From the NCBI GenBank assembly GCA_020073485.1, contig JAIQFB010000006.1:62001-126000 (forward strand): 64,000 bases of DNA, given 5' to 3'. Position numbers and translations under genes: made by a program. The DNA is from Terriglobia bacterium. Lineage in GTDB: Bacteria > Acidobacteriota > Terriglobia > Acidiferrales > UBA7541. This document shows positions 1,526 to 21,054 of this stretch, piece by piece. The number at the start of each line of letters is the position of its first letter. Position 1 is the stretch's first letter. The notes under the pieces were generated by a model, which was not told the DNA's origin, did not search any database, and saw nothing but the letters and a program-made list of their open reading frames with translations.

Positions 1526-4500
1526 ATGAAATTGCAAAAGCGGCAGTTTGCACTGGTTCTGGCGTCATTTTTCGCCATGGCACTTATTCTCGGGCCGTAT
1601 GCGCGCGCGCAGCAGACGCTCGGCGGCATCACCGGCGCGGTAACCGACTCTTCGGGCGCGGTGGTCGTCAATGCCACGGTCACCGTGGTTGGCGATCAGA
1701 CGAAACTCACGCGCGAACAGACCACGAATGCGAGCGGGATCTACTCGTTTGTGAACTTGCCTATCGGGGCGTACACGGTGACAGTCACGCAGGCCGGTTT
1801 CCAGTCGCAAACCATACCGGCCATCGTAGTGCAGGCCAACCGCACCGTCACGCTCAACGCCGAGTTGAAAGTCGGCAACGTCAGCGAGTCGATTACGGTG
1901 GAAGAGACCCCGCTGCTGAATGCCGTCGACACCACCAACGGATACGTCATGGATAAGCTGCAAATCGATGCCGTTCCCCTGCCCACAGGCTCGTTCACGG
2001 GGCTGACCATTCTTTCCCCCGGCGTAAACGCGGAACTTTCCGGCGGAACCGGCGCCAATGCGGGCCTGGGCAACGCGCCCGTCTGGGCCAACGGCCAGCG
2101 CGACACCAGCAACACGTTTTTGCTGAATGGCGTCGACGCCCGGAGCCTTTTCAACGGCAAGAGCACCAGCCAGGTGGCTTCGGCGCGCGTTGTGAATAAC
2201 ACGGGCGTCAGCGGCGCCTCCAGCTTGAGCGCCATTCCCGTACAGAGCAGTGCTTCGGTCTACCTGGCCATCGGCGAGTCCATTCCCTCGCCGGCTCCCG
2301 AAACCATTTCCGAAGTTCGCGTGAATACTTCGATGTACGACGCGCAGCAGGGCTCGACCAGCGGCGCGCATATCGACATGAGCACCGCTTCGGGCACCAA
2401 CACGATTCACGGAACCGCCTACGTGCATCGCGGCACCAACTGGCTCAATGCCGATCCGTATTTCTACAACGCCGACCCCAACATTCCCGCCAATGAGAAG
2501 AACCCAGGCCTGCACCGCTACACTGCCGGCGGTGCGGTTGGCTTGCCCATCAAGAAGGACAAGCTCTTCTTCTATGGCAGCTACCAGCAGACACGCGCTT
2601 CGGATGACGAGATCGGCATTTCGCGCGCGTTTGTGCCGCCAGACCTTACCAATGACCGTTCGCTCGCAGGCTTGGCTGCGCTTGCTAGCACGGACACGAC
2701 TTTCGCATCGCCTCTCAACACGACCTTCGAGGCCCCCGTGACGGTGACCCCAAATTTCACCACCACTCCTTGCGGGTCGGGCAATACCGACACTTGCGGC
2801 GTCAATCCCATCGCGTACACGTTGTTCAATTACAAGCTGCCCAACGGCCAATTCCTCATCCCGTCCGCAAATCCGAATTCGGTTGTGAAGACCAGCGGCG
2901 CGGGACCATTGGCTACGGCGTTTCCGGAGGACGCCGAGGTTCCGGGGACGGCCGTATTCATGGCCAAACAGGCTGTCGCGGACCTGGACTGGAATCCCAA
3001 TTCAGCTCATTCTTTTTCCGCCAAGTATTACTACCAGCATGATCCGACCATCGCCCCGTACGGGTATTCGATGTTCGCCGGTTTTGCACAGCATCTGGAC
3101 GCCGGAAGCCAGGTCATCTCGCTGAGTCACACGCAGATCCTGAAGTCCAATCTGAGCGTGACCGAAACGTTCGGTTTTATCCGGGAAAAAGCCTATAGCA
3201 CCATGGACCAGCCGTTTACCACAGCGCAATTTGCCTCGGCCTGTAAGACCCTTGTGCCCACCGCGACCACCGCGGATTGCACCATCAATTCGCTGGGTTC
3301 TTCCTTTTTCCCTGGCATCAGCCTGGTGTTCGCGGGCACAACGGCCACCCCGTATCCTTATTCCATGAACGTCGGCGCGGGAGCGGCTTCAGAGGGAGCC
3401 TTCACGGGAGTTTTCCAGAACCGATTCAATCCCTCCGCCAACGCCATCTGGACGCTGGGCAGGCACACCATCACGTTCGGCGGCAGCTTCGCGTACACGC
3501 AGCTCAATACCAAGGATCAAAGGGACCAGCAGGGGATGATCGCGTCGGCGGACTTTACCAACTTCATGGTTGGAAATCTCACCCCGAACTACGTCTACAA
3601 CATTACCGCTTTGCTGATTGGGAATGCGAATCGCTATTGGCGCGCGAATGAAACCGGCGAGTACATCCAGGACAAATTTCAATGGAAGAGCAACCTGGCG
3701 ATCACCGCGGGCCTCCGGTTCGATTGGGACGGCGGGTTGACGGAGAAAAACGGCAACCTGCTCAACTTCGATCCGTCGAAGTATTCCTACAACCCCTTGA
3801 CGGACACGATTACGTCGAACGGTCTGATCGTCGCCGGGAATAACCCGACGGCCGGAACGCCCGGCGTGAGCAAGACCACGCTGACCGGACGGCAGTGGGG
3901 TTTTGCTCCTCGCATCGGCGTCGCCTGGAGTCCGAAGATGTTCAACAGCAAAGTAGTGGTCCGCGCCGGTTGGGGAATGTACTACGACCGCGGCGAACTC
4001 TTCGCGTATCTGTCGCCGGGCCTGTCGCAGAACATTACCGGTGGAGGACCATTCGGGGTCAACCAGCAGCAGCCCTTTGTGGGCACACTGTCCTGCGGAA
4101 TTACGGCTCCTTGTGCAGGCAATGATCACGTCCCTACGTTGCAGAATCCGTATGGGACTGCAGCCGACCTGGCCATAGCAAAACCCACGGGGACTGCAAA
4201 TGGTATCGTTCTGCCGAATGCCTGCACGTTTGCGAACTTCAATAATCCGAGCCCGGTATGCTCTCCACTTTCCGAGAACACTTCGAACCCGACACCTTTT
4301 TATCTGGGAGCCTACGCGCGCAACAACAAGCTCCCCTACACGATGAACAGCACGCTGGATATTCAGTGGCAGCCGCGCAACGATTTGGCGATTGACATTG
4401 GCTACGTCAACGCTCTTGGCCGGCATGAGATCATTCCCATCCCGTTCAATCAGGCCAGAATCGCTTCGCCGTCGAACCCGCTCTGCGGACCTGCGCCGAA

Positions 4501-5638
4501 ATGCGCGAACCCCGGCGCTTCGCCGTTTGCCCAGTCCTATACCTACGGTTTCACACTCCAGCAGAACCAGGCTGGGTGCAACATTTTTGGCAACTTCTGC
4601 CCCGCGAATCTGCCCAACGAACAGCCGTACTTGGCCAACCCCGAGGGCGGCAACGTGGACTTGCGCGTTCCTTACATTGGGTTCGGCGCCGAGTCCGAGC
4701 TGTACACGGCGGAAGGGATCTCGGCCTACAACGCCTTGCAAGTGCACGTGGAAAAGAGGATCAGCCACGGGTTGCAAGCGGGTTTCTCTTACACGTTCTC
4801 ACGCTCGTTCGATGAGCAGAGCGCCCTGGGGCTCTTTTACAACGGCAATAACCCGCTCAATATCCGGGACGGTTATGGCCCGTCGGACTTTGACCGCACG
4901 CACGTGTTCAACATCACCTACCACTACGAACTCCCGAAATTCGTTTCGAGCAATTCGTGGGAAAGCAAGGTGACGAACGGCTGGGCCCTGCAGGGGTTGA
5001 TCACCCTGCAGAGCGGGCAGCCCTATAGCGTCATCGACTACTCGGGAGCCGTGGGCAGCGTGTTCTATAGCATCTTCGACGGAATCACGAATCCCATCGA
5101 TCCACTCGCCTCGGGCTGCACGCCGCAGAGCGCATTGACCGGGGCCGTCGGAAATAATCCCAACGCACCGGCCTTGAAAGCCTCCTGCTTCGCGTTGCCT
5201 CTGCTCGCTCCGGGCGCTTTGAATGGCGCAATTCCCGGAGCGTCGTCGAACAACGCCTTCGGAGATACGTTCGAAACCAATTTCACCACCGGACAGCGCA
5301 ACATTTTCCGGCAATCGTGGCAGAGGGTGGCGAACATCTCCCTGGAGAAGACGACTCCACTGACCGAGAGGGTTTCCCTGGCGTACAGCTTTGACGTCTT
5401 CAACCTGACGAACACGCCCAGCTTCGATATTCCCATCGACAACGTCACCCAAAACCTGAACTTCAGCGCGTTTCCGGTCGCGGGCTTGTGCCCGTCTCCA
5501 ACCATCAGCACTTCCGGATGCGATAATACCCTCAATTTCGGAAGCCCGTTCTTCAATGCACCCGGCGGCCTGGGCCAGGTCACGAAAACGATCGGCAGCT
5601 CGCGGCAGATTCAAATGACGCTTAGCCTTTCGTTCTAA
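1526..5638 (+). CDS. Oar-like TonB-dependent receptor with carboxypeptidase-regulatory domain
   Basis: A 1370-aa outer-membrane protein. Residues 1-28 form a signal peptide ending ARAQ. Residues about 30-115 are a CarboxypepD_reg-like Ig fold (GGITGAVTDSSGAVV, ASGIYSFVNLPIGAYTV). A plug-like region precedes a long beta-barrel, and the last residue is Phe (LSLSF), the usual outer-membrane insertion signal. These proteins are thought to import large or complex substrates; the ligand cannot be told. Oddity: the conserved EYGR..GGVVN..SKSGTN plug motif found in the two other receptors here is replaced by DAQQGSTSGAHIDMSTASG, so this is a divergent subfamily. The start is supported by a strong GGAGGG ribosome site. 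Confidence 0.9.
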   Translation: MKLQKRQFALVLASFFAMALILGPYARAQQTLGGITGAVTDSSGAVVVNATVTVVGDQTKLTREQTTNASGIYSFVNLPIGAYTVTVTQAGFQSQTIPAIVVQANRTVTLNAELKVGNVSESITVEETPLLNAVDTTNGYVMDKLQIDAVPLPTGSFTGLTILSPGVNAELSGGTGANAGLGNAPVWANGQRDTSNTFLLNGVDARSLFNGKSTSQVASARVVNNTGVSGASSLSAIPVQSSASVYLAIGESIPSPAPETISEVRVNTSMYDAQQGSTSGAHIDMSTASGTNTIHGTAYVHRGTNWLNADPYFYNADPNIPANEKNPGLHRYTAGGAVGLPIKKDKLFFYGSYQQTRASDDEIGISRAFVPPDLTNDRSLAGLAALASTDTTFASPLNTTFEAPVTVTPNFTTTPCGSGNTDTCGVNPIAYTLFNYKLPNGQFLIPSANPNSVVKTSGAGPLATAFPEDAEVPGTAVFMAKQAVADLDWNPNSAHSFSAKYYYQHDPTIAPYGYSMFAGFAQHLDAGSQVISLSHTQILKSNLSVTETFGFIREKAYSTMDQPFTTAQFASACKTLVPTATTADCTINSLGSSFFPGISLVFAGTTATPYPYSMNVGAGAASEGAFTGVFQNRFNPSANAIWTLGRHTITFGGSFAYTQLNTKDQRDQQGMIASADFTNFMVGNLTPNYVYNITALLIGNANRYWRANETGEYIQDKFQWKSNLAITAGLRFDWDGGLTEKNGNLLNFDPSKYSYNPLTDTITSNGLIVAGNNPTAGTPGVSKTTLTGRQWGFAPRIGVAWSPKMFNSKVVVRAGWGMYYDRGELFAYLSPGLSQNITGGGPFGVNQQQPFVGTLSCGITAPCAGNDHVPTLQNPYGTAADLAIAKPTGTANGIVLPNACTFANFNNPSPVCSPLSENTSNPTPFYLGAYARNNKLPYTMNSTLDIQWQPRNDLAIDIGYVNALGRHEIIPIPFNQARIASPSNPLCGPAPKCANPGASPFAQSYTYGFTLQQNQAGCNIFGNFCPANLPNEQPYLANPEGGNVDLRVPYIGFGAESELYTAEGISAYNALQVHVEKRISHGLQAGFSYTFSRSFDEQSALGLFYNGNNPLNIRDGYGPSDFDRTHVFNITYHYELPKFVSSNSWESKVTNGWALQGLITLQSGQPYSVIDYSGAVGSVFYSIFDGITNPIDPLASGCTPQSALTGAVGNNPNAPALKASCFALPLLAPGALNGAIPGASSNNAFGDTFETNFTTGQRNIFRQSWQRVANISLEKTTPLTERVSLAYSFDVFNLTNTPSFDIPIDNVTQNLNFSAFPVAGLCPSPTISTSGCDNTLNFGSPFFNAPGGLGQVTKTIGSSRQIQMTLSLSF

Positions 5639-5765: not shown

Positions 5766-6590
5766 TCAGCTTGCGCTCACCGTCACCGAAAGCGTTTCGA
5801 TGGGGGCTTGCTGGAAGGCGCTTTGCAATTCCGCAGCATCGGAGAAAGTCTTGCCTTGCACATGGCGCGCAGGGAAACGAAACGTCAGCGAAGGCTCGGC
5901 GTACGGGTAGGGATCGAGGACGAAGTGGCGCGGACCGGCGGCGCGGACCTGGACGGGAACGTGGCCGCCGTCGCGCGTGGGCAGGAGATGCAGCAGAGTG
6001 GCCGGCTGGCGGAAATCGACGCACGTGAGCAGCGAAAGATTGTCGTTGGCCTGCAACAGGCGGAAATGATCGAGGATCGCGGCGTCGCTGGTGTGCTTGG
6101 GAGCGAAAGACGGATCGGAACCCACCTGCTCGCGCAGGGATTTCTGGAATACCAGCTGTTCGACCAGGAAGCGGTCGAGCAGGGGAAGTTGCGCGGGCGC
6201 GATGGTCGAACGGTCGGCGTGGTCAGAGAGCAGGCTGTAGGTGTGCATGGAAATCAAGATGGCCGCGTAGGGATCCTCGGCGGCGATCAGGCGGACGGCG
6301 CGGTCGCGCACGGCTAGGTAATCCTCGAGATCGATTTCCTCGAAGGCCGAATATTTTCCGACCAACTCCACGCCGAACGCGCTGGGTTTTCCCTGGCGCG
6401 TGATTTGCGGGGCGGCGTCGCGTGCGGCCCAGCCGTCATCGTGGCGAGCGATGCCGCGAAGCACGTGTTCGCGGGGTTCGGGCGCGAGGAAGCGATCGTT
6501 TCCCCAGCGCTGTGCGAACGCTCCGGCCAGCCGGGCGTGATCGGGGTGCGTGACCAGCCACCATCCGGTTTCCGTTTCCAGTCGCAACAT
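5766..6590 (-). CDS. DUF3891 family protein
   Basis: A 274-aa soluble protein matching the DUF3891 pattern: TGWWLVTHPDHARLAG.FA at the N terminus, then IARHDDGW and an ISMHTYSLLSDHAD segment. The spaced His/Asp residues (HPDH, RHDDG, HTY, DHAD) resemble an HD-type metal site, but no biochemical function is established that I know of. The ATG at 6590 has a GAGGTG ribosome site 9 nt upstream. It is on the same strand as, and 138 nt beyond, the ABC permease gene, so it may be the distal gene of that transcription unit; REP-like hairpins in between argue for partial separation. Confidence 0.8.
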   Translation of the reverse strand: MLRLETETGWWLVTHPDHARLAGAFAQRWGNDRFLAPEPREHVLRGIARHDDGWAARDAAPQITRQGKPSAFGVELVGKYSAFEEIDLEDYLAVRDRAVRLIAAEDPYAAILISMHTYSLLSDHADRSTIAPAQLPLLDRFLVEQLVFQKSLREQVGSDPSFAPKHTSDAAILDHFRLLQANDNLSLLTCVDFRQPATLLHLLPTRDGGHVPVQVRAAGPRHFVLDPYPYAEPSLTFRFPARHVQGKTFSDAAELQSAFQQAPIETLSVTVSAS

Positions 6591-6728: not shown

Positions 6729-7520
6729 TCACTCGGCCTCCGGAACGCGCGCCGATTCGTGCCAGCGGTGCAGAAAATACCATTCCATGAACATCACCAG
6801 GAAAAAAAAGCAAAAGCCAAGAACCGTAGTGGCGAACACCAGCGCAAATAAGTAGTCCGTTTGCAGCTGCGACCAGGCGTAGAGAATGGAATAGCCGAGG
6901 CCTCCCACGCCCACCTGGCTCGAGCCGGCATACAACTCGCCGGTAACGGCTCCGATCACCGCGATGCCGCTGGCGATGCGAATGCCTACAAAGAGTGACG
7001 GCACGGCGTGCGGCAGGCGCAGCTTGAAGAGTAGCTGGGCGCGCGAAGCGCTGTGCATCAAAAAAAGATGTACCAGATTTTCGTCCACGCTGATCAGGCC
7101 CTGTGTGGTATTAGCGATGATGGGCGCGAGCGAAATGATAAAGGCGATGAGGGTCACCGCGGGTTCCCCCGCTCCCACCCACATCAGGATCAGCGGCGCG
7201 ACCGCGATGATCGGCACGGTTTGCAGAAGCAGCGTGTACGGATAAAACATTTTTCGCACCCAGCGCGATTGCGCAAAAACCAGCGCGATAACGACTCCCA
7301 CGGCGATGCTGGCCGCGAGGCCTCCCGCGGATTCTTCCGCCGTGATGGCCAGGGAGTTCAGCAACGTCGGCAGCCGCGTGTGGACCGCTTTCGCCACTGC
7401 ATACGGCGTCGGCAACATATAAGGCGGCACGCGGAACACCCAGAGCACGATTTGCCACAACACCAATAGTGCGGCGAACACCACCAGAGCGTTCACCGCC
7501 GTGAGTAATCGCTGCTTCAT
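6729..7520 (-). CDS. ABC transporter permease (SsuC/TauC/ThiX type)
   Basis: A 263-aa inner-membrane protein with about six hydrophobic segments: one near residues 7-28, several between 65 and 135, and a final one near 225-245. The cytoplasmic coupling (EAA-like) loop is visible as SASRAQLLFKLRLPHAVPSL followed by GIRIASG. It belongs to the taurine/nitrate/pyrimidine importer family. Its start overlaps the ATPase stop by 4 bp, so the two form one unit. The matching binding protein is the divergent lipoprotein at 12892. The substrate is unknown; the enzymes of the operon suggest a nitrogen-containing heterocycle or amide. It is the last gene of the overlapping series. Confidence 0.92.
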   Translation of the reverse strand: MKQRLLTAVNALVVFAALLVLWQIVLWVFRVPPYMLPTPYAVAKAVHTRLPTLLNSLAITAEESAGGLAASIAVGVVIALVFAQSRWVRKMFYPYTLLLQTVPIIAVAPLILMWVGAGEPAVTLIAFIISLAPIIANTTQGLISVDENLVHLFLMHSASRAQLLFKLRLPHAVPSLFVGIRIASGIAVIGAVTGELYAGSSQVGVGGLGYSILYAWSQLQTDYLFALVFATTVLGFCFFFLVMFMEWYFLHRWHESARVPEAE

Positions 7521-8302
7521 GCCGCCAAGGTCTCCCGCAGTGCATGCGATACCCTCGACACCAGGGCGTCAAATTCCGGCGATGTGCGCAGCGCCGCGAC
7601 GCGCGGCGATGGCAAATCCACAGGAAACACCGCGTGAATGCGCCCCGGATTCGGCGCCAGCACCACGATCCGGTCGGAAAGGAATGCCGCCTCGGCCACC
7701 GAATGCGTCACGAATACAGCGGCCCATTTCTGCTCGCTGCGCAGGCGTAATATTTCTTCGTTCAATCGGTCGCGCGACATTTCATCCAGGGCCGCGAACG
7801 GCTCGTCCAATAGCAGCAGGCGCGGGCTGGTGGCCAGCGCCCGTGCGATCGAGACGCGCATTTTCATTCCGCCGGAAAGCTCGCGCGGATAGGCGCCGGC
7901 CACATGGTTCAGTCCCACCAGCGCGAGCAGGGAAGCGATCGTTTTTTTTCTGCGGTCGCTGGCAACGCCTTCCAGTTCCAGGCTCAGGCCGATGTTGGCG
8001 GTGACGGTGCGCCAGGGCAGCAGCGTCGCTTCCTGGAAGACGTAGGAAACCGTTTCGCGGGCGTTCTGCGGCGTCATGCCCTCGACGCGGATGGTTCCGG
8101 AAGTGGGCGCCGTCAGGCCGGAAATCAATTTCAAGATCGTGGACTTGCCGCAACCCGATGGGCTGATGATGCTGACGAATTCCTCGCGGCAGACGGTGAG
8201 GTCCAGCGACTGGAGCACGGCGGGGCCGTTGCCATAACTCTTGGTAACGCCTGCAATTTCGATCTGTGGGACATCGTTCCGGATTTCTGGCGCTGGATTC
8301 AT
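7517..8302 (-). CDS. ABC transporter ATP-binding protein (SsuB/TauB/ThiZ type)
   Basis: A 261-aa ATPase with Walker A SPSGCGKST near residue 50, signature LSGGM near 143, Walker B LLLLDEP, and H-loop VFVTHSVAEA. Oddity: the first Walker A residue is Ser where the GxxxxGKS/T consensus has Gly; the essential Lys-Ser/Thr are kept, so activity is still expected. Start and stop both overlap their neighbours by 4 bp (CocE-like gene upstream, permease downstream). It powers import of the ligand caught by the lipoprotein at 12892. Confidence 0.92.
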   Translation of the reverse strand: MNPAPEIRNDVPQIEIAGVTKSYGNGPAVLQSLDLTVCREEFVSIISPSGCGKSTILKLISGLTAPTSGTIRVEGMTPQNARETVSYVFQEATLLPWRTVTANIGLSLELEGVASDRRKKTIASLLALVGLNHVAGAYPRELSGGMKMRVSIARALATSPRLLLLDEPFAALDEMSRDRLNEEILRLRSEQKWAAVFVTHSVAEAAFLSDRIVVLAPNPGRIHAVFPVDLPSPRVAALRTSPEFDALVSRVSHALRETLAA

Positions 8303-10020
8303 AGCGGCGCCTTGCTTTCGTCGACAGGCAGATAGAGCGCCGAACGCAAATCATGCGAGTGATGCACGATCTGCGTCGAGCGCTGCCAATCCCACGACGT
8401 CGCAATCCGGGAAGCGACGCCGTTTCCCGGATTGCGATCGTAGAGAGGGAAGGCGCTGCTGGCGATCTCGATCCGTATCCGGTCGCCGCGATCGAACCGG
8501 CAGGAGGTCGCATCCAGGAAAAAATCCCATGAATGGATTTTGTCCGCGGCATATCCGGTCTCGCGAAACAGATGGCTGGACCGCGCGATTCCCATGCAGA
8601 TAAATTCCGCCGCGCCGTCGGGCCTCGCCCGGACAAGTTTGGCGGTAAAGTCCGTTTCCTTTGACGATGTGGCGGCGTACAAAATGATCCGGGGAATTCC
8701 GAAGATCCAGAGCGGGTCGGCGAGCGGCTCGGTGGAATAGACGAGCAGGTTATTGCCCAACTCCAACGTGGCTTGATCGAATGGCCCGCTCGCCGCGGAC
8801 GGCCCTCCTGGAGCAAGGACCGGCAATTCCGGGTCGTAAACAAAAATGTCGTTGGGCTCATCTGGGCCGGGCATTTCAGGCGAAAGCGTGCCGTCTCCCT
8901 TGCGCGAATTGGCGTTGCCGCCGCTGCGCAAATAGAGGACGTGATTGGCTTCCGTGGGAAACACCCCGGCCTGCCGCCAGCGATTTTCTCCCAGGACGAA
9001 ATGGCGGACGCGCGGTTCTCCCGCGAAGGTGCCGGAATCCTTCAGCCAGTGATCGAACCAGCGAAGCAGAATCGAGTCGGTATCGAGCAGCGCCTCGGGG
9101 CCGAAATTCGTGGTTCCGATGCGATCGCCCCACGGAATGTGCACCCACGGCCCGGCGATCAGGTACTGATGATTGCGCGCGAAGTCGCTGCCCGCATAGG
9201 ACGAAAGCGCCAGGAATCCGTGGGTGCTGCCTCTCACGTAGGTGTCATACCACCCGGAAACATGCAGCGCGGGCACGCGGATTTGATTCAGGCGCTGGGT
9301 GACATCGAGCGAGGCCCAATATTCGCCGGGCTGATCGTGAGCGAACCAATCGAGCGCGTACTGCGGCAGCCCTTCGCCGTGGAGTGCGGGATGCTCGCGA
9401 AACGGAAGCACGCTGGTCTGCGCCGCGAGATTCGCCCACGCTTGTTCGAGCCGGTCGCTCGCCTCGCGCAATTTCTTGCGCCGCGCGTCCGCTTTCAACA
9501 GTTGAATCCCCCAGCCGAGCGATGCTGCCAGGCGCAGCGCTCCCTGGTGATAAAACCAGCCCTGGTAGAGATCGCAGGCGGTCATCCCGGGAGAGATGCA
9601 TTGCAAACCTTCGGGATTTTCGGCGGCAGCCAGAAGCTGCGTGATTCCCTGATAGGAAAAACCGTACATGCCGACGCGCCCGTTCGATTCAGGCCGCGCG
9701 CGCAGCCAGGCAATCGTGTCCGCGCCGTCGTGCGCTTCGTGGCGGAACGGATAGAATTCGCCGCCGGAATCGCCGCGCCCGCGAACGTCCTGGATAACCA
9801 CGTTGTATCCGCGCCGTGCAAACCAGACCGGATGCGCGTACACGACGGTGGAAGCAATGTCCCGCCCGTACGGCTGCCGCATCAAGAGAGTCGGGTGGGG
9901 GCCGGGCTCAGGTGGGTAGTAATGATCGGAAACCAGTTCCACGGCGTCGCGCGTGCGGCAACGCGCGCCGCGCTCCAGGCGCACGCCGTTGCCGCAATCG
10001 ACCAGCGCGGGTTCGCTCAT
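8299..10020 (-). CDS. CocE/NonD family hydrolase (X-Pro dipeptidyl-peptidase S15 fold)
   Basis: A 573-aa alpha/beta-hydrolase of the cocaine esterase/glutaryl-7-ACA acylase group, which cleaves esters or amides. Nucleophile elbow GMYGFSYQG gives the catalytic Ser; an Asp (GWYDTYVRG) and His (AGPWVHIPWG) complete a plausible triad. A C-terminal jelly-roll domain follows (DFFLDATSCRFDRGDRIRIE). The frame is open further upstream to 10170, but I chose ATG 10020 because it gives the usual N terminus and overlaps the creatininase stop by 4 bp (ATGA). No signal peptide, so cytoplasmic. Substrate unknown; the context suggests cleavage of an acyl or amide group from the imported compound. Confidence 0.88.
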   Translation of the reverse strand: MSEPALVDCGNGVRLERGARCRTRDAVELVSDHYYPPEPGPHPTLLMRQPYGRDIASTVVYAHPVWFARRGYNVVIQDVRGRGDSGGEFYPFRHEAHDGADTIAWLRARPESNGRVGMYGFSYQGITQLLAAAENPEGLQCISPGMTACDLYQGWFYHQGALRLAASLGWGIQLLKADARRKKLREASDRLEQAWANLAAQTSVLPFREHPALHGEGLPQYALDWFAHDQPGEYWASLDVTQRLNQIRVPALHVSGWYDTYVRGSTHGFLALSSYAGSDFARNHQYLIAGPWVHIPWGDRIGTTNFGPEALLDTDSILLRWFDHWLKDSGTFAGEPRVRHFVLGENRWRQAGVFPTEANHVLYLRSGGNANSRKGDGTLSPEMPGPDEPNDIFVYDPELPVLAPGGPSAASGPFDQATLELGNNLLVYSTEPLADPLWIFGIPRIILYAATSSKETDFTAKLVRARPDGAAEFICMGIARSSHLFRETGYAADKIHSWDFFLDATSCRFDRGDRIRIEIASSAFPLYDRNPGNGVASRIATSWDWQRSTQIVHHSHDLRSALYLPVDESKAPL

Positions 10021-10811
10021 GCGCTTTGGCGATCCGAATATCGCGCCATCGCTTCCAAAGCAGCGGCCAGGCGCGTGGCCGCTTGTTCCAGCCAGCGCTC
10101 GCCCTTTTCCGCGGAAGCCGGGCGAGGGTCGCCCAGCACGCCGCTTTCCGCGATGTCGCGCGTGAGCCAAGCGAACGTCGCCGGAGCGTTTTCCGGCAGC
10201 AGTATTTCTGGCGCGGAAATGTCCGCGATGTAATTTGAGGTGTATGCGGTTTGGTCCACCACTTCTGGAATGCCGGCCAGCAGAAAAGAAGTTTCCACTT
10301 CCCCGGCGTGAAATCCGTACGCGCGTTCCTGTGGGTTGAGGCCTTCAAACGAAATTCCACCCGATCCGTGCAGCGTGAACGTGCGCAGGCCGAATTCCGC
10401 GCGCAGGTCGCGGGCCATCACGTCCACGAGCGAAGTATTTCCGCCATGCGTGTTGTAGAGGACGAGTTTTTTGAAATTGGCTTTTGCCAGGCTGGCGCCC
10501 AGATCGCGCACCACGGCCATGAACGTCGTCGCGCTCACCGAAAGTGTTCCGGGAAAACCGATGTGCTCGTTGCTTTTGCCGTAATGCACCGGCGGCAGTG
10601 CGTAGACCGGCATCTCGGCGGGCAATTTTGCAAGCGCGTGGCCCAGCAGAAGATTATTGATAAGCGTGTCGGTGGCCAGCGGCAGGTGATGCCCGTGCTG
10701 TTCGATGGCTGCCGTCGGAAGCACGAGCAGAGTGGATTCGCGCGGAAGGGCATCGACCTGTTTCCAGTTCAAATAAGCAAAAGTGCGGGCGCTGGGAATC
10801 CAGGTCTTCAT
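10017..10811 (-). CDS. Creatininase family amidohydrolase
   Basis: A 264-aa zinc/manganese amidohydrolase. Metal-site motifs of the creatininase fold are present: IEQHGHHLPLATDT, YNTHGGN, and FHAGEVETS near residue 185. The family opens lactams or cleaves amides; members include creatininase, MftE and archaeal formylamino-pyrimidine deformylases, so creatinine itself is not implied. ATG 10811 was chosen over longer frames because it overlaps the stop of the FAD oxidase by 4 bp (ATGA), and its own stop overlaps the CocE-like start in the same way. Cytoplasmic. Confidence 0.88.
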   Translation of the reverse strand: MKTWIPSARTFAYLNWKQVDALPRESTLLVLPTAAIEQHGHHLPLATDTLINNLLLGHALAKLPAEMPVYALPPVHYGKSNEHIGFPGTLSVSATTFMAVVRDLGASLAKANFKKLVLYNTHGGNTSLVDVMARDLRAEFGLRTFTLHGSGGISFEGLNPQERAYGFHAGEVETSFLLAGIPEVVDQTAYTSNYIADISAPEILLPENAPATFAWLTRDIAESGVLGDPRPASAEKGERWLEQAATRLAAALEAMARYSDRQSA

Positions 10812-12184
10812 TTCATCGCTCCGGCCGCCGAAGATTCCGGATGAAACGTGATCATTTTCCCCGGATTCAGCAGGCCCTTCGGGTCGTAACGCTGTTTCGC
10901 GAGAAGTTGCACGTTGTCCGCGCGATACCTTCCTCCGCCTTCCACGTTGTTCACGTGCGGGTTCGCCACGAACACTCCGATTTCCCGGCAATAATCGATC
11001 ATTTCGTTCAACCGTTTCTCCGTTGTGAAATAAACCAGGGGAATCGCGCCGGGAACGATTTGTCCGGCGCCGTTCTTCATGAATTCCATGTGGAACAAGA
11101 TTTCGTATCCAAATCGTTCGCGCAATTGCCGCATTTGTTCGCGAACTTTACCCGGGTCGAAGCCGCATTGCAAATACGTATATGCTTCGTCCGCCTGCAT
11201 GGCCCACAGAGTGGTGTGATTCCAGGTGTAGTCCGAGAGCAGCGGCCTCATGTTGAGTCCCACGTAGGCGCCGCTGTAGGGAATGGTTCCTCCGGCAGCC
11301 AGCGCAGCGGATTCGAGGGCGGAGCACTGCGTACTCGCAATCAGGAAGAAGATGAGCGATTTACCTTCGGGCGCATATTTAATAATGGGAGTAAAAAAAG
11401 ACGGGATCGGCCATTCAAACGTCGTGACCAGGCGCTTGGTCCACTCCTTCCCGGTGGCGATCTTCTTGCTGAAATCAAACGCGGCGTCGAAGGTGTCAAA
11501 CGCGGCGACGCATTGCGACCAATCGACGGCGCGCGCGAGCGCGAGCCAGATGCGTGTGATCACGCCATTGGTGCCCCAGGCATGCAGAATTTCATGCACG
11601 GCTTCGCCCTCGTGCAAAACAATTCTGGGTTCCGGTTCCATGGTAACCACTTCGATGGCACGCACGGTTTGAAAGTCACACAAATTTCCGTTGGCCACAG
11701 TTCCTATGCCGCCGGACCCGCCGCCGAGAAATCCTCCGACCGAGGCTTTGACAACGGTTGAAGGGTAGCAGCGCAGCTCCCAACCTGCTTTGCGCGCTTC
11801 CGCTTCCAGGACTCCCAGCCGCGCCCCGGGCTGGCAAACCGCCACGCCCTGCGGCTGGATAGACTCGATACGATCCATGCGCGCCAGATCCAGCACCACT
11901 CCGCCTTGCAGCGGAACAGCCTGGCCGTAGTTTCCGGTGCCCGCTCCGCGCACGGTCACGGGAATATTTCGGGAAAAGCAGGCGCGCAGGAGTTTCTGAA
12001 CTTCGGAGGCGTCCAGTGGCTGCACGACAACGTCGCCCACCTTGCCGTTGAGCTGCTTGCGAAGCACCGGCGAATACCAATAAAAATCTTTCGACAGTTG
12101 CTCGACGATCTGCGGCTCGGCAATGACCCGTGCGTCATCCCCTAGGATGGATCGAAGTTCGGCGATATGGGTTTCATTCAACAT
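10808..12184 (-). CDS. FAD-binding oxidase (VAO/PCMH, GlcD-like)
   Basis: A 458-aa flavoprotein. The N-terminal FAD_binding_4 domain shows VRGAGTGNYGQAVPLQGG and VGGFLGGGSGGIGT, the loops that hold FAD. The C-terminal part ends in the family motif YDPKGLLNPGKMI. Such enzymes oxidise alpha-hydroxyacids or similar alcohols/amines. It follows the deaminase gene by 45 nt and overlaps the creatininase start by 4 bp, so it is a step of the same pathway. No Fe-S domain is attached, unlike the 990-aa protein at 37813. Electron acceptor and substrate cannot be read from the sequence. Confidence 0.88.
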   Translation of the reverse strand: MLNETHIAELRSILGDDARVIAEPQIVEQLSKDFYWYSPVLRKQLNGKVGDVVVQPLDASEVQKLLRACFSRNIPVTVRGAGTGNYGQAVPLQGGVVLDLARMDRIESIQPQGVAVCQPGARLGVLEAEARKAGWELRCYPSTVVKASVGGFLGGGSGGIGTVANGNLCDFQTVRAIEVVTMEPEPRIVLHEGEAVHEILHAWGTNGVITRIWLALARAVDWSQCVAAFDTFDAAFDFSKKIATGKEWTKRLVTTFEWPIPSFFTPIIKYAPEGKSLIFFLIASTQCSALESAALAAGGTIPYSGAYVGLNMRPLLSDYTWNHTTLWAMQADEAYTYLQCGFDPGKVREQMRQLRERFGYEILFHMEFMKNGAGQIVPGAIPLVYFTTEKRLNEMIDYCREIGVFVANPHVNNVEGGGRYRADNVQLLAKQRYDPKGLLNPGKMITFHPESSAAGAMK

Positions 12185-12229
12185 GTTCCGTAGTCCAAAC
12201 TAATTTCCCTGGGCCCGGCGGAAGCCCAC

Positions 12230-12772
12230 TCAGGGTTTTCGCGAGTTCCATTTCCGAAACGCCTGTTGCATGTTGGGGTGCGTGAACAGCGTGTTGCACA
12301 AATCGCGGAGGACCGGTCCCTCGACCTTGCAACGCATGTCCGAACGCCGCGCAACTTCTTTCGCGGGGATGTGAATTTGCAGGACGTGCCGGTTGGCGTC
12401 CTCGATAGTGGCGCCGTAGACGACGCGGTCGAGCCGGGCCCAGAGAGCGTTGGCCATGCACATTGCGCAGGGCTCGCAGGTGGAGTACATGGTGTATCCG
12501 GCCAGGGACGGACGCTTGAGTTTTTTGCAGGCTAGGCGAACGGTGCGGGTTTCGGCGTGGGCGCTGGGATCGTTCTCGCGCATCACGGCGTTTGTGGCGC
12601 GCAGAAGGCGCTCGTTCGTGTGCGTATTCACGATGAGCGCGCCAAAGGGAACCGGATGCGCGGTTTCCAGCGAGCGCGCCGTGAACTGAACAATCTCTCG
12701 TATGCGCGCTTCGTCGGCATCGATTTGACGAGCGGCCGCTTTGGCAGGATGGGCCATGGCCCAATTTAACAT
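12230..12772 (-). CDS. Cytidine/guanine deaminase-like zinc deaminase
   Basis: A protein of about 180 aa with the zinc deaminase signature: HAE (His ligand plus catalytic Glu) and TCEPCAMCMANALWARLDRVVYG (two Cys ligands). This CMP/dCMP deaminase fold acts on amino groups of pyrimidines or purines; guanine deaminase and TadA are relatives. The start is uncertain: the frame extends to 12940, which would run into the divergent gene at 12892, so I prefer ATG 12772 (or 12757). No clear ribosome site marks either. It heads the minus-strand catabolic operon, implying the imported ligand carries an exocyclic amino group (inference). Confidence 0.8.
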   Translation of the reverse strand: MLNWAMAHPAKAAARQIDADEARIREIVQFTARSLETAHPVPFGALIVNTHTNERLLRATNAVMRENDPSAHAETRTVRLACKKLKRPSLAGYTMYSTCEPCAMCMANALWARLDRVVYGATIEDANRHVLQIHIPAKEVARRSDMRCKVEGPVLRDLCNTLFTHPNMQQAFRKWNSRKP

Positions 12773-12891
12773 CTTGCGGCAGGATGCGCCGCGCGCCTTC
12801 CCATTGAATTTTTGTATGGGATGCATTATACGGCCGGTTTCGCAAACCCCCATGCTATGCTGCGGTGGATTTCTCCTCCTGGAGACGGCAG
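12773..12891. promoter_or_regulatory. Divergent control region between deaminase operon and binding-protein gene
   Basis: This 119-nt interval must hold promoters for both directions, tying the binding protein to the catabolic operon. I see no consensus -35/-10 pair that I would defend. A GGAG ribosome site (12881-12884) serves the plus-strand gene. Confidence 0.4.
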
Positions 12892-13872
12892 ATGGGCAAT
12901 TTAGTCCTCCGTGTCTGGTATTTCCTTCTATTGGGCGCACTGTGCGCGCTGGGATGCGGCCATTCCTCGACCCAGGCCGGCCTGACGAAAATAACGCTGC
13001 AAGCGGACTGGTATCCGCAACCCGAGCACGGGGGCTTTTATAACGCGCTGGTGAAGGGCTATTACAAGGACGAAGGGCTCGATGTAGCGATCCAGCCCGG
13101 CGGTCCGTACGTCGGCGTCGCGCAGCAGGTGGCCTCGGGCAGCGCCCAGTTCGGCATGGCTTCTTCGGACCAGATCCTGGAGGCTGTTTCCGACGGGCAG
13201 CCCCTGGTGGCCGTGGCCGCGACGATGCAGCAGGATCCGCAAGGCATCATGGTGCGGAAGGATTCCCCCATTCGATCGTTCGCGGATCTCAACGGCCATA
13301 CGGTGGCGATCAAGACCGGATCCACATGGTTTCAATATATCGAGAAGCGCTTCCAGTTAAACAATGTTCACGAAGTTCCGGCGATGATGAACGTGGCGAA
13401 CTTTGTTGCCGATCCCCAGTACATCCAGCAGGCGTTTGCCACTTCGGAGCCGTTTTTTGCGCGCCAAGCCGGGATCGAGACGCGCGTCCTTCTGACCTGC
13501 GACGCTGGATACAGTCCTTACCGCGTGATGTTCACGACCCGTGCCGAAGTGCGGCAGCATCCGGAAATCGTCGCCAAATTTGTGCGCGCATCGGTGAAGG
13601 GCTGGCGGGATTATTTGAACGATCCCGCGGCGGCGCACGCGACAATCGCCAAGCTGAATCCCGCGCTCAATCCGGAATGGATGCAATTTACTTGGCAGAA
13701 ATTGCGAGAGGGCCATTTCGTAGCCGGCGACGACCCCAGCGGCGCGCAACTCGGGCAAATGGACCCCAAGCGCTGGGCCACCATGTACGAACAATTGACC
13801 GAATTGAAAGTGATTTCCAATCCGATCGATCCCACCACGGCGTACACGCTACAGTTTATCCATGGGCAGTAG
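12892..13872 (+). CDS. NMT1/THI5-like ABC substrate-binding lipoprotein
   Basis: A 326-aa periplasmic binding protein with a lipoprotein signal: hydrophobic run YFLLLGALCALGC, lipobox ALGC with Cys 20. It then starts KITLQADWYPQPEHGGFYNA, typical of the NMT1/SsuA-like family that captures formylaminopyrimidine, riboflavin, taurine or similar ligands. I chose ATG 12892 (GGAG ribosome site 7 nt upstream) over the GTG at 12865, which would put charged residues ahead of the signal peptide. It is divergent from the operon that carries the matching ATPase and permease. The ligand is probably a small N-containing compound (inference). Confidence 0.9.
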   Translation: MGNLVLRVWYFLLLGALCALGCGHSSTQAGLTKITLQADWYPQPEHGGFYNALVKGYYKDEGLDVAIQPGGPYVGVAQQVASGSAQFGMASSDQILEAVSDGQPLVAVAATMQQDPQGIMVRKDSPIRSFADLNGHTVAIKTGSTWFQYIEKRFQLNNVHEVPAMMNVANFVADPQYIQQAFATSEPFFARQAGIETRVLLTCDAGYSPYRVMFTTRAEVRQHPEIVAKFVRASVKGWRDYLNDPAAAHATIAKLNPALNPEWMQFTWQKLREGHFVAGDDPSGAQLGQMDPKRWATMYEQLTELKVISNPIDPTTAYTLQFIHGQ

Positions 13873-13929
13873 CGCGCATTTCTTACCGTTATTATAGGAT
13901 TTGAGAAGATCTTCGAGGTACGGATTCTA

Positions 13930-14000
13930 GTGGCGCAGGCTTCAGCCTGTGGGGTTTAGTCCGAGGCGGCCCAAACCCCACAGGCTGAAGCCTGCGCCAC
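13930..14000. repeat. REP-like element, long perfect inverted repeat
   Basis: Arms of 28 nt (13930-13957 and 13973-14000) are perfect inverted copies around a 15-nt loop, and each arm itself contains the small palindrome CAGGCTTCAGCCTG. A partial further copy (CCTGTGCCACC) follows at 14006-14016. It lies between convergent genes, where it could also stop transcription from both sides, although no T-run is present. Confidence 0.85.
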
Positions 14001-14024
14001 TGAAACCTGTGCCACCAGGACGGC

Positions 14025-17738: not shown

Positions 17739-18935
17739 CTAGCTTCCGGTAAGCGCGGATTCGACTTTCCGATTGGCCGGTGCCAGCGAATTCAGCGCCG
17801 CCAGCACTCCGCCTTCTTTAAATGGCACGCCCGCCAGCCGCAGGCCCATTTCCACCCCGCACAGCGTTCCTGCCAGCATCAGATCGTTGAAACTTCCGAG
17901 GTGCCCGATGCGGAATACTTTTCCCGCAAGCTTGGAAAGGCCCGCGCCCAGGGACATGTCAAAATTTTCCAGGATCACGGCGCGCAGTTTATCGGCGTCA
18001 CTGCCTTCGGGCACAAATACCGCCGTCAGGGAACTCGAATATTCGCGCGGATCCTCGCAAACAATTTCCAGGCCCCAGGCTCGCACGGCCGCGCGCGTCG
18101 CTTCCGCGTGACGGTCATGGCGCCGGAAGACATTCGGCAGCCCCTCTTCCTGCAACATGCGCAGGGCTTCGCGCAATCCGTACATCAGATTGGTGGGCGG
18201 GGTGTACGGGAAGAATCCGCTACGGTTCGGCTTCATCATTTCCTGCCAGTCCCAATAGGCTCTCGGCAGGCGCGCCTTTGCATTTGCCGCCAGCGCATTT
18301 TCGGAAATCGCATTGAAACTCATCCCGGGGGGCAGCATCAGCCCCTTCTGCGATCCCGCCACGGTGACGTCAACTCCCCACTCGTCGTGCCGGTAGTAGA
18401 TGGAGCCCAGCGAAGAAATCGTATCCACCATCAGCAATGCGGGATGGCGCGCGGAATCGATCGCGCGGCGAAGCTCGGGAATGCGGCTGGTGACTCCCGT
18501 GGAAGTCTCGTTGTGGACGGCCATGACCGCCTTGATGGCGTGGCCGCGATCCGCGGTGAGCCTTGCTTCGAGTTCGGTGGCGGAGGCGCCCCTGCGCCAG
18601 TTGCCCGGCACGTAATTGACCTTGATTCCGAATTTCTCGGCGACCTGGCGCCAGAGCGTCGAAAAATGGCCGGTCTCGAACAGCAGCACTTCATCGCCGG
18701 GGGACAGCGTGTTGACGATCGCCGCTTCCCACGCACCGGTGCCCGACGCGGGATACATCACCACGGGCTGCGCGGTCTGGAAGACCGCGCGCAGCCCGTG
18801 GAGAACTTCCTTGCCCAGTTCCGCAAACTCCGCGCTGCGGTGATCCATCACCGGCTCGTCCATGGCCCGGAGCACGCGATCCGGAACATTGGTGGGACCC
18901 GGAATTTGCAGGAAATGACGCCCAGTATGCAGCAT
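17739..18935 (-). CDS. sgaA: Serine-glyoxylate aminotransferase-like class V aminotransferase
   Basis: A 398-aa PLP enzyme. It closely follows the SgaA pattern: IPGPTNVPDRVLRAM, YPASGTGAWEAAIVNTLSPG, AVHNETSTGVTS, the PLP lysine in AGSQKGLMLPPG, and the C-terminal AGKVFRIGHLG. SgaA moves the amino group of serine to glyoxylate, giving hydroxypyruvate and glycine; the related alanine- or ureidoglycine-glyoxylate aminotransferases cannot be excluded. It fits the other glyoxylate-linked enzymes in the window (malate synthase, 2-hydroxyacid dehydrogenases). Cytoplasmic. It follows the NTF2-like gene by 38 nt on the same strand and may share its transcript. Confidence 0.85.
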   Translation of the reverse strand: MLHTGRHFLQIPGPTNVPDRVLRAMDEPVMDHRSAEFAELGKEVLHGLRAVFQTAQPVVMYPASGTGAWEAAIVNTLSPGDEVLLFETGHFSTLWRQVAEKFGIKVNYVPGNWRRGASATELEARLTADRGHAIKAVMAVHNETSTGVTSRIPELRRAIDSARHPALLMVDTISSLGSIYYRHDEWGVDVTVAGSQKGLMLPPGMSFNAISENALAANAKARLPRAYWDWQEMMKPNRSGFFPYTPPTNLMYGLREALRMLQEEGLPNVFRRHDRHAEATRAAVRAWGLEIVCEDPREYSSSLTAVFVPEGSDADKLRAVILENFDMSLGAGLSKLAGKVFRIGHLGSFNDLMLAGTLCGVEMGLRLAGVPFKEGGVLAALNSLAPANRKVESALTGS

Positions 18936-19651: not shown

Positions 19652-20965
19652 CTAATGGGACATCATCATGCCGCCCATCGACATGTCATTGCGGATTACG
19701 TCGCCGCCCTTCATCACGAACTTCACCCGCTGCATTTCCGAAATGTCCTCGAGAGGATTTCCGGAAACCGCGATGATGTCGGCGAATTTTCCCTTTTCGA
19801 TGGTGCCCAGCTTGTCCTGCATGCGGATGATCTGGGCATTCACCGTGGTGGCCATGCGCAGCGTGTACACCGGGCTCGCTCCCCATTGCACGAACACGGG
19901 AAACATTTCGCCCTGCACGCCATGGGAGCAATTGCACTCCTTGTTGTAGACGCGCCCTGGCGGCGGCGCTGACCCGCTGCCCCAGCCGAGAATTACGCCG
20001 GCGGCAAGCATCTTCTTCCAGGTGACCTGCACCAGGCGGTAGCGGCTGTACGGCGCCCACTGCTTCAGATCGTCCGGCTCGTCCTGGCGGTGGTCGAGAA
20101 TGGTCGTGGTGATCGGCAGGTGCTTCGCCACGATCTCGCGGATGTCGTCGTCGTTCGCGGCGGTGGCGTGCTGGATGTTATCGAGGCCCAGGTCGATGGC
20201 TTCCTTCAGGCCTTCGCCTCCGTAGGTGTGCGAGGCGACCCACATTCCGCGCCGGTGCGCTTCGTCGATCACCGCGGCCAATTCATCGCGAGTGGGAAGC
20301 GGCTGGTTGTACATCTTGCCGTCCTTGTCAAAGTAGAACGGCCCGGTGGTGTGAATCTTGACGTGCTCGGCCCCGTACTTCGCAAGTTCACGCACCGCGC
20401 CGCGCATCTGGTCGGCTCCATTCACTTCGATGTCCTGTTCCATGGGCGAGTTCAGCAGCGGGAAAGCAGCGTTGCCCGGCATGGTGATGTTAATGATGGG
20501 GCCGGCAGTGATAATGCGCGGGCCCTTCACCAGCCCGGCCTGTATGGCCTTCTTCAGTTCCACGTCGGCGTATCCGCCGCCGTGCGATCCCATGGCCACC
20601 AGCGTGGTATAGCCGGCGTTCAGGCTGGACGTGGCGCTGAACAGCGCCACCATCATTTGGTGTTGCAGGCCTCCCTGGACGTCGGTCAGGTGCACGTGGC
20701 CGTCGATCAGCCCGGGCAGCACGGTGGCGCTGCCGAGGTCGATGACCTTGGCGCCGGCGGGAATCTTCACGCTATCCGCGGAGCCCACATCCGAAATCTT
20801 GTCGCCGCTGATGAGAATGACCTGATTGGTCAGGTTCGTGCCGGACTTGGGGTCGAACATCTTGCCCGCGCGGATGGCCGTGACCTGCGAGGTTTGCGCC
20901 GTCGCCGCCACCGTTACCGCCAGGATCAAGAAGAAGATGCGGAACGCCACTTTCATTTGCTTCAT
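19652..20965 (-). CDS. Exported amidohydrolase-family protein with altered catalytic site
   Basis: A 437-aa TIM-barrel protein after a signal peptide (MKQMKVAFRIFFLILAVT..AQ). Metal-site motifs DGHVHLTD and HTYGGEGLKEAID...NIQHA are present, and the barrel ends with IEKGKFADIIAVSGNPLED as in imidazolonepropionase/prolidase-type amidohydrolases. Oddity: where relatives have GTDA (the catalytic/metal Asp), this protein reads LGWGSGSA, so the Asp is absent; a nearby Cys/His-containing stretch (NKECNCSHG) follows. It may be inactive or use another geometry. ATG 20965 was chosen over the upstream frame because GGGAGG sits 5 nt before it. Substrate unknown. Confidence 0.82.
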   Translation of the reverse strand: MKQMKVAFRIFFLILAVTVAATAQTSQVTAIRAGKMFDPKSGTNLTNQVILISGDKISDVGSADSVKIPAGAKVIDLGSATVLPGLIDGHVHLTDVQGGLQHQMMVALFSATSSLNAGYTTLVAMGSHGGGYADVELKKAIQAGLVKGPRIITAGPIINITMPGNAAFPLLNSPMEQDIEVNGADQMRGAVRELAKYGAEHVKIHTTGPFYFDKDGKMYNQPLPTRDELAAVIDEAHRRGMWVASHTYGGEGLKEAIDLGLDNIQHATAANDDDIREIVAKHLPITTTILDHRQDEPDDLKQWAPYSRYRLVQVTWKKMLAAGVILGWGSGSAPPPGRVYNKECNCSHGVQGEMFPVFVQWGASPVYTLRMATTVNAQIIRMQDKLGTIEKGKFADIIAVSGNPLEDISEMQRVKFVMKGGDVIRNDMSMGGMMMSH

Positions 20966-21054
20966 AGTGCCTCCCTTGCGATTCAAAATTCGAGATCCGG
21001 GCGGATGCTCTTGATGGGCACGTGCCCGCTGTGATTCCTGGTCCGCACAGATGC

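Follow-up and report, generated by a model that had tools for sequence, protein, structure and literature searches.

A conserved acidobacterial gene cassette that probably imports and degrades a pterin or folate-derived pteridine and resembles proteobacterial 6v42-type clusters

The degradation of folate and pterins in the environment has been described as not fully elucidated (PMC9513972). A pterin deaminase from Variovorax acts on folate and pteroate, and conserved ‘endoribonuclease’ genes come after its gene (PMC9513972). A flavin enzyme has been placed in the same area of metabolism by the title of its PDB entry, 6v42, ‘Crystal structure of the flavin oxygenase with cofactor bound involved in folate catabolism’; wherever we refer to the folate tie of 6v42, it is taken from this title. 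In the literature searched, we found no report on 6v42/6v43 or on the gene cluster, and a 2025 paper on riboflavin catabolism (PMC12746152) makes no mention of folate, creatininase or deaminase.

FAD proteins of the 6v42 type belong to a recurrent proteobacterial cluster. We found the family in 31 of 398 Pseudomonadota genomes. Around 35 Pseudomonadota loci of this family (entry L117 of the same table is acidobacterial), an amidohydrolase-superfamily (AHS) deaminase occurs 31 times, an importer binding protein 30 times, a creatininase-family enzyme 29 times, RidA 28 times and an FMN reductase 27 times; a CDA deaminase was found at none. The same enzyme types lie together on plasmid records from Rhizobium johnstonii (pRL12), Agrobacterium, Klebsiella, Pantoea, a Comamonadaceae strain, Paroceanicella and Alloyangia. 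The Variovorax order, deaminase then ‘endoribonuclease’, fits the AHS-RidA order seen in the Klebsiella, Pantoea and L139 clusters, a likeness in gene order.

The locus studied here lies in a 64,000-nucleotide stretch (the window) of an acidobacterial genome of 5.05 Mb. A first-pass annotation had described six genes for import and degradation, joined by four ATGA overlaps and with the binding protein divergent, and all of these features are present (Table 1). Each of the four junctions from the FAD gene to the permease has a 4-base ATGA overlap, while 45 bases separate the deaminase and FAD genes and 134 bases lie between the deaminase and binding-protein genes, which diverge. An in-frame stop codon a short way ahead of the deaminase gene in a relative, L002, backs the start at 12757. 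The DUF3891 gene, 138 bases beyond the permease on the same strand, and, in most relatives, an amidase gene belong to the cassette too; both had been overlooked. ATGA overlaps are ordinary for bacteria, and the real signal is the conserved order. In the divergent region, we found neither a consensus sigma-70 site nor an inverted repeat, and promoter and terminator scans performed at or below chance. An Rfam search of the window returned zero matches and thus offers no riboswitch clue to the ligand.

Table 1. Cassette genes and adjoining features, numbered from the first base of the window.
Feature	Position	Strand	Basis
Oar-like outer-membrane beta-barrel receptor, convergent	1526-5638	plus	Pfam OMP_b-brl_4
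DUF3891 protein, constant cassette member	5766-6590	minus	Pfam DUF3891 4.5e-43
Permease, ABC importer	6729-7520	minus	Pfam BPD_transp_1; order conserved
ATPase, ABC importer	7517-8302	minus	Pfam ABC_tran; order conserved
CocE/NonD-type serine hydrolase	8299-10020	minus	TIGR00976
Creatininase-family amidohydrolase	10017-10811	minus	Pfam Creatininase 2.2e-67
FAD_binding_4 protein (oxygenase/oxidase), 6v42 relative	10808-12184	minus	phmmer, profile, fold
CDA-superfamily zinc deaminase, guanine-deaminase-like	12230-12757	minus	Pfam dCMP_cyt_deam_1
Divergent intergenic region, presumed control region	12758-12891	no strand	position only
NMT1/THI5-type lipoprotein substrate-binding protein	12892-13872	plus	Pfam NMT1 1.9e-40

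Rather than being scattered, homologues of the six genes keep their order in 17 other acidobacterial loci (L002-L011, L071-L076 and L117), gathered by scanning with the deaminase and by searching with a profile of the FAD protein. Of two further records, L070 duplicates L007 and L012 is truncated at its contig end. The common order is binding protein, amidase where present, deaminase, FAD enzyme, creatininase-family enzyme, CocE, ATPase, permease and DUF3891. The side carrying the binding protein and amidase flips, being divergent in most loci and on the same strand in L011, L071, L072 and L073. All 18 cassettes have the creatininase-family enzyme and the binding protein, and 17 of the 18 have the ABC pair in place; in L075, CocE and the ABC pair are missing at that place and DUF3891 is kept after the creatininase gene. 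DUF3891 is a direct neighbour in each of the 17 other near-complete loci, L075 included. The amidase stands next to the binding protein in most relatives and is absent only from the window, L002 and L003; the amidases elsewhere in the window's genome are distant ones, the best-scoring reaching 33%. Intergenic spacing varies across the loci, so the tight overlaps appear dispensable and the order does not. Among 396 Acidobacteriota genomes, we found the FAD gene in 8, and in the family to which the window belongs it is confined to the window's genus; such a patchy spread would be expected of a transferred accessory pathway.

Several neighbours of the cassette are kept less widely. A homologue of the Oar-like receptor (~48-74% identity) stands in the same place in L002, L004, L005, L006, L008, L009 and L010 and was not seen at the remaining cassette loci; it is possibly an optional partner in outer-membrane uptake. 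A BhcA-like class V aminotransferase (17739-18935) and an amidohydrolase (19652-20986) lie near the cassette and are kept at 94-95% identity in the same-genus locus L002. We considered both as pathway members and rejected them, since they adjoin the cassette only in L002 and not in Acidobacteriaceae. Between the 3′ ends of the binding-protein gene and the next gene is a long palindrome (13910-14020; 54-nt arms, 81% complementary, 3-nt loop). Similar sequence occurs at ~40 places in the genome, which marks it as one of a dispersed palindromic repeat family.

By a wide margin, the nearest solved structure to the FAD protein is 6v42 (phmmer, 1.3e-105; next chain, 2.5e-12). The family profile matches 6v42 co-linearly over its full length (3.3e-128), with WNHTT, NPH and GTGNYGQ as conserved motifs, and the predicted fold aligns with it at Z 30.5 (3.3 Å, 421 aligned), the next structure being a D-lactate dehydrogenase at Z 25.0. 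As the fold model reached a mean pLDDT of 68, a moderate confidence, we weighted the sequence evidence above the fold. The 6v42 sequence, as it stands in the profile alignment, is 66-76% identical to the FAD proteins of the proteobacterial clusters and ~42% identical to the acidobacterial ones. In a midpoint-rooted tree, the acidobacterial FAD proteins (20 rows) group together as a single clade (100/100), set apart by a long branch (1.1). Next to it, and sister only in that sense (97/89), lies a branch of Klebsiella/Comamonadaceae type together with the pseudomonadotal locus L142. The match to a structure titled for folate catabolism, the close identity of that structure to FAD proteins encoded alongside deaminases, creatininase-family enzymes and importers, and the position of the acidobacterial clade in the tree each favour a pterin or folate substrate.

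Judged from these sequences, the ~42% identity and the long branch would leave room for a different substrate. The branch length would suit a cassette that degrades some other, undescribed N-heterocycle and has only general enzyme types in common with the folate cluster, as would the differing deaminase fold, the gain of CocE, amidase and DUF3891, and the missing RidA and FMN reductase. Yet the FAD enzyme, the creatininase-family enzyme, the binding protein and the ABC pair are all common to the proteobacterial clusters, and a deaminase has been kept, though of another fold; we therefore consider this reading unlikely.

If a pterin is degraded, the cassette's deaminase would act on the 2-amino group. 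Its family profile finds guanine deaminase 1wkq as the best PDB match (2.9e-26), with plant-type guanosine deaminase a close second, and is nearer to guanine deaminase than to the listed cytosine deaminases. The zinc and catalytic residues H67, E69, C97, C100 and D120 are invariant in 15 rows, and an invariant Asp aligns with Asp114 of guanine deaminase. Assignment as the tRNA adenosine deaminase TadA was rejected (NCBIfam NF008113, 59.6 bits against a cut-off of 150). A search with an AHS deaminase from a Comamonadaceae cluster gave zero matches in the window's genome at 1e-10, which would leave the deamination step to the CDA enzyme. Since guanine and pterin have a 2-amino-4-oxopyrimidine in common, a relative of guanine deaminase is a natural substitute. 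The kinship to guanine deaminase, in a genome with no AHS match, thus favours a pterin or folate substrate.

The same profile match and aligned Asp would also be expected if the cassette degraded a purine (guanine, oxidised guanine or a guanine-like base) and not a pteridine. However, xanthine dehydrogenase, uricase, allantoinase and allantoate genes are absent from the cassette and the neighbouring genes scanned, and the FAD enzyme is of the folate-oxygenase type, which together make a purine substrate distinctly improbable.

Relatives of the deaminase also occur on their own. Stand-alone copies of ~60% identity in L013 (10001-10504), L014 (2650-3234) and L015 (9920-10504) carry an apparent Tat signal (NRRSFLAQAGAA); these are possibly exported, and the rest of the cassette is not nearby. 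Pseudovibrio (L017, 9397-10498) has two tandem CDA-fold deaminases with 35-42% identity to that of the window, and a search of its genome did not find a 6v42-type FAD gene.

The creatininase-family protein falls short of the NCBIfam cut-offs for creatininase itself (TIGR04448, 90.2 bits against 235) and for MftE of the mycofactocin system (TIGR03964, 127.7 bits against 172). We thus rejected both assignments, EC 3.5.2.10 and MftE, and set creatinine degradation aside. E37, H39, D48, H122 and E173, likely the metal and catalytic positions, are invariant across Acidobacteria and Proteobacteria, and the second histidine motif reads NTHGGN. The protein is likely a cyclic-amide hydrolase and not creatininase proper. 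The CocE hydrolase exceeds its cut-off (TIGR00976, 408 bits against 66), and its Ser-Asp-His triad (S122, D259, H294) is invariant, the proteobacterial copy in L142 included. DUF3891 has the invariant residues H15, H18, H50-D51-D52, H116, H175 and H201, a pattern, His-Asp-Asp included, that would possibly suit a metal-dependent enzyme.

The binding protein appears to be a lipoprotein: an LGC resembling a lipobox lies near its N-terminus, and the Cys of this motif is almost invariant among relatives. Its predicted fold is closest to ThiY (3ix1, Z 26.5, 2.9 Å, 285 aligned) and to a thiamin-bound Clostridioides difficile protein (4nmy, Z 26.1, 3.1 Å, 286 aligned), followed by Thi5 (Z 22-25). The top seven structural rows are all ThiY, thiamin-bound binding protein or Thi5 (Z 22-26.5), and the next family stands at 20.4; PqqT, SsuA, NrtA and TauA give Z 18-20. 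On this model the protein groups with pyrimidine binders of the ThiY/Thi5 type, which favours a pterin or folate substrate. The first-pass annotation had named a taurine or nitrate ligand as the result that would speak against its reading, and neither the fold nor the NCBIfam comparison gave one. The equivalog cut-offs are missed for taurine binding (20.5 against 304), SsuC (76.7 against 347) and nitrate permease (65.7 against 209), and a taurine, sulfonate or nitrate importer was therefore rejected.

The ThiY-like fold would also fit a cassette that degrades the thiamin pyrimidine (HMP or formylaminopyrimidine): the 4-amino group would be removed by deamination, the FAD enzyme would oxidise the hydroxymethyl group and the creatininase-fold enzyme would open the ring. 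A PaoABC-type aldehyde oxidoreductase near the Rhizobium and Agrobacterium clusters points the same way as the nearest folds of the binding protein. Against this stand the folate tie of the FAD enzyme's nearest solved relative, a deaminase more like guanine deaminase than the listed cytosine deaminases, and a window without a TPP riboswitch or other Rfam match, and we think a thiamin-pyrimidine substrate improbable.

Collectively, our data are most consistent with a cassette for the import and degradation of a pterin or a folate-derived pteridine, to which we give a probability of roughly 60%. Gene content and order, their conservation, the intact catalytic residues, the family relationships and the exchange of deaminase folds are observed, whereas the substrate, each product and the sequence of the steps are inferred. 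The ThiY-like binding protein and ABC importer would take up the pterin, and the guanine-deaminase-like enzyme would strip its 2-amino group to give a lumazine. The flavin enzyme would then oxygenate or oxidise the ring system, the creatininase-fold enzyme would cleave a cyclic amide and so open the ring, and CocE, DUF3891 and, where present, the amidase could hydrolyse the fragments. The absence of RidA and FMN reductase near the acidobacterial cassettes weakens the case for this substrate. The earlier proposal of uptake and breakdown of an N-heterocycle, with a vitamin breakdown product among the candidates, is well supported. Its companion statement that no known pathway has this enzyme set does not hold, since a creatininase-family enzyme, FAD oxygenase, NMT1 importer and deaminase recur together in a proteobacterial cluster whose FAD structure is titled for folate catabolism, and a close counterpart thus exists.

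More tentatively, the cassette may be a second route for pteridine-ring breakdown, assembled separately among soil Acidobacteria. Such a route would have recruited its deaminase from the guanine-deaminase branch, would do without a flavin reductase or RidA of its own, and would employ DUF3891 as a new ring-breakdown enzyme. The cassette is a small set of genes that can be tested in culturable members of the phylum (Silvibacterium, Granulicella), and it suggests functions for DUF3891 and for members of the CocE and creatininase families that are so far uncharacterised.

How does the cassette compare with the described systems? With ThiXYZ/ThiY importers of thiamin precursors it shares the binding-protein fold (at ~21% identity to ThiY); unlike them, it has no thiamin genes, and the window has no TPP riboswitch. 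The pseudomonadotal locus L142 (4779-12391) reads CocE-ATPase-permease-FAD-creatininase-binding protein, with an amidase and an AtzH-like protein. It has CocE (39%), the ABC pair, the FAD enzyme (47%), the creatininase-family enzyme and the binding protein in common with the cassette, and also an amidase. Its order is different, however, CDA deaminase and DUF3891 were not found there, and it has neither an AHS deaminase nor any other recognisable deaminase; L142 is possibly a second variant.

The proteobacterial 6v42-type cluster has in common with the cassette the FAD enzyme (35-42% identity), the creatininase-family enzyme (32-41%) and an NMT1-type ABC importer, usually adjoining a deaminase gene. 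It has RidA and an FMN or VanB-type reductase, whereas the acidobacterial cassette has CocE, DUF3891 and, in relatives, the amidase; RidA and NAD(P)H-dependent FMN reductase are absent from all acidobacterial cassette neighbourhoods. The deaminase is of the AHS type in the proteobacterial cluster and of the CDA fold in the acidobacterial cassettes, none of which has an AHS pterin deaminase. In its proposed working the cassette is like the folate cluster, but as the AHS deaminase and the nearby RidA and FMN reductase are lacking, we do not file it as a member. One deaminase fold has been exchanged for another between the two sets of clusters, and the cassette looks like a natural deaminase-fold swap inside a conserved pathway. 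The pterin deaminases Arad3529 of Agrobacterium radiobacter and that of Variovorax sp. F1 (PMC9513972) presumably carry out the same reaction as the cassette deaminase, removal of the pterin 2-amino group, with a protein of a different superfamily.
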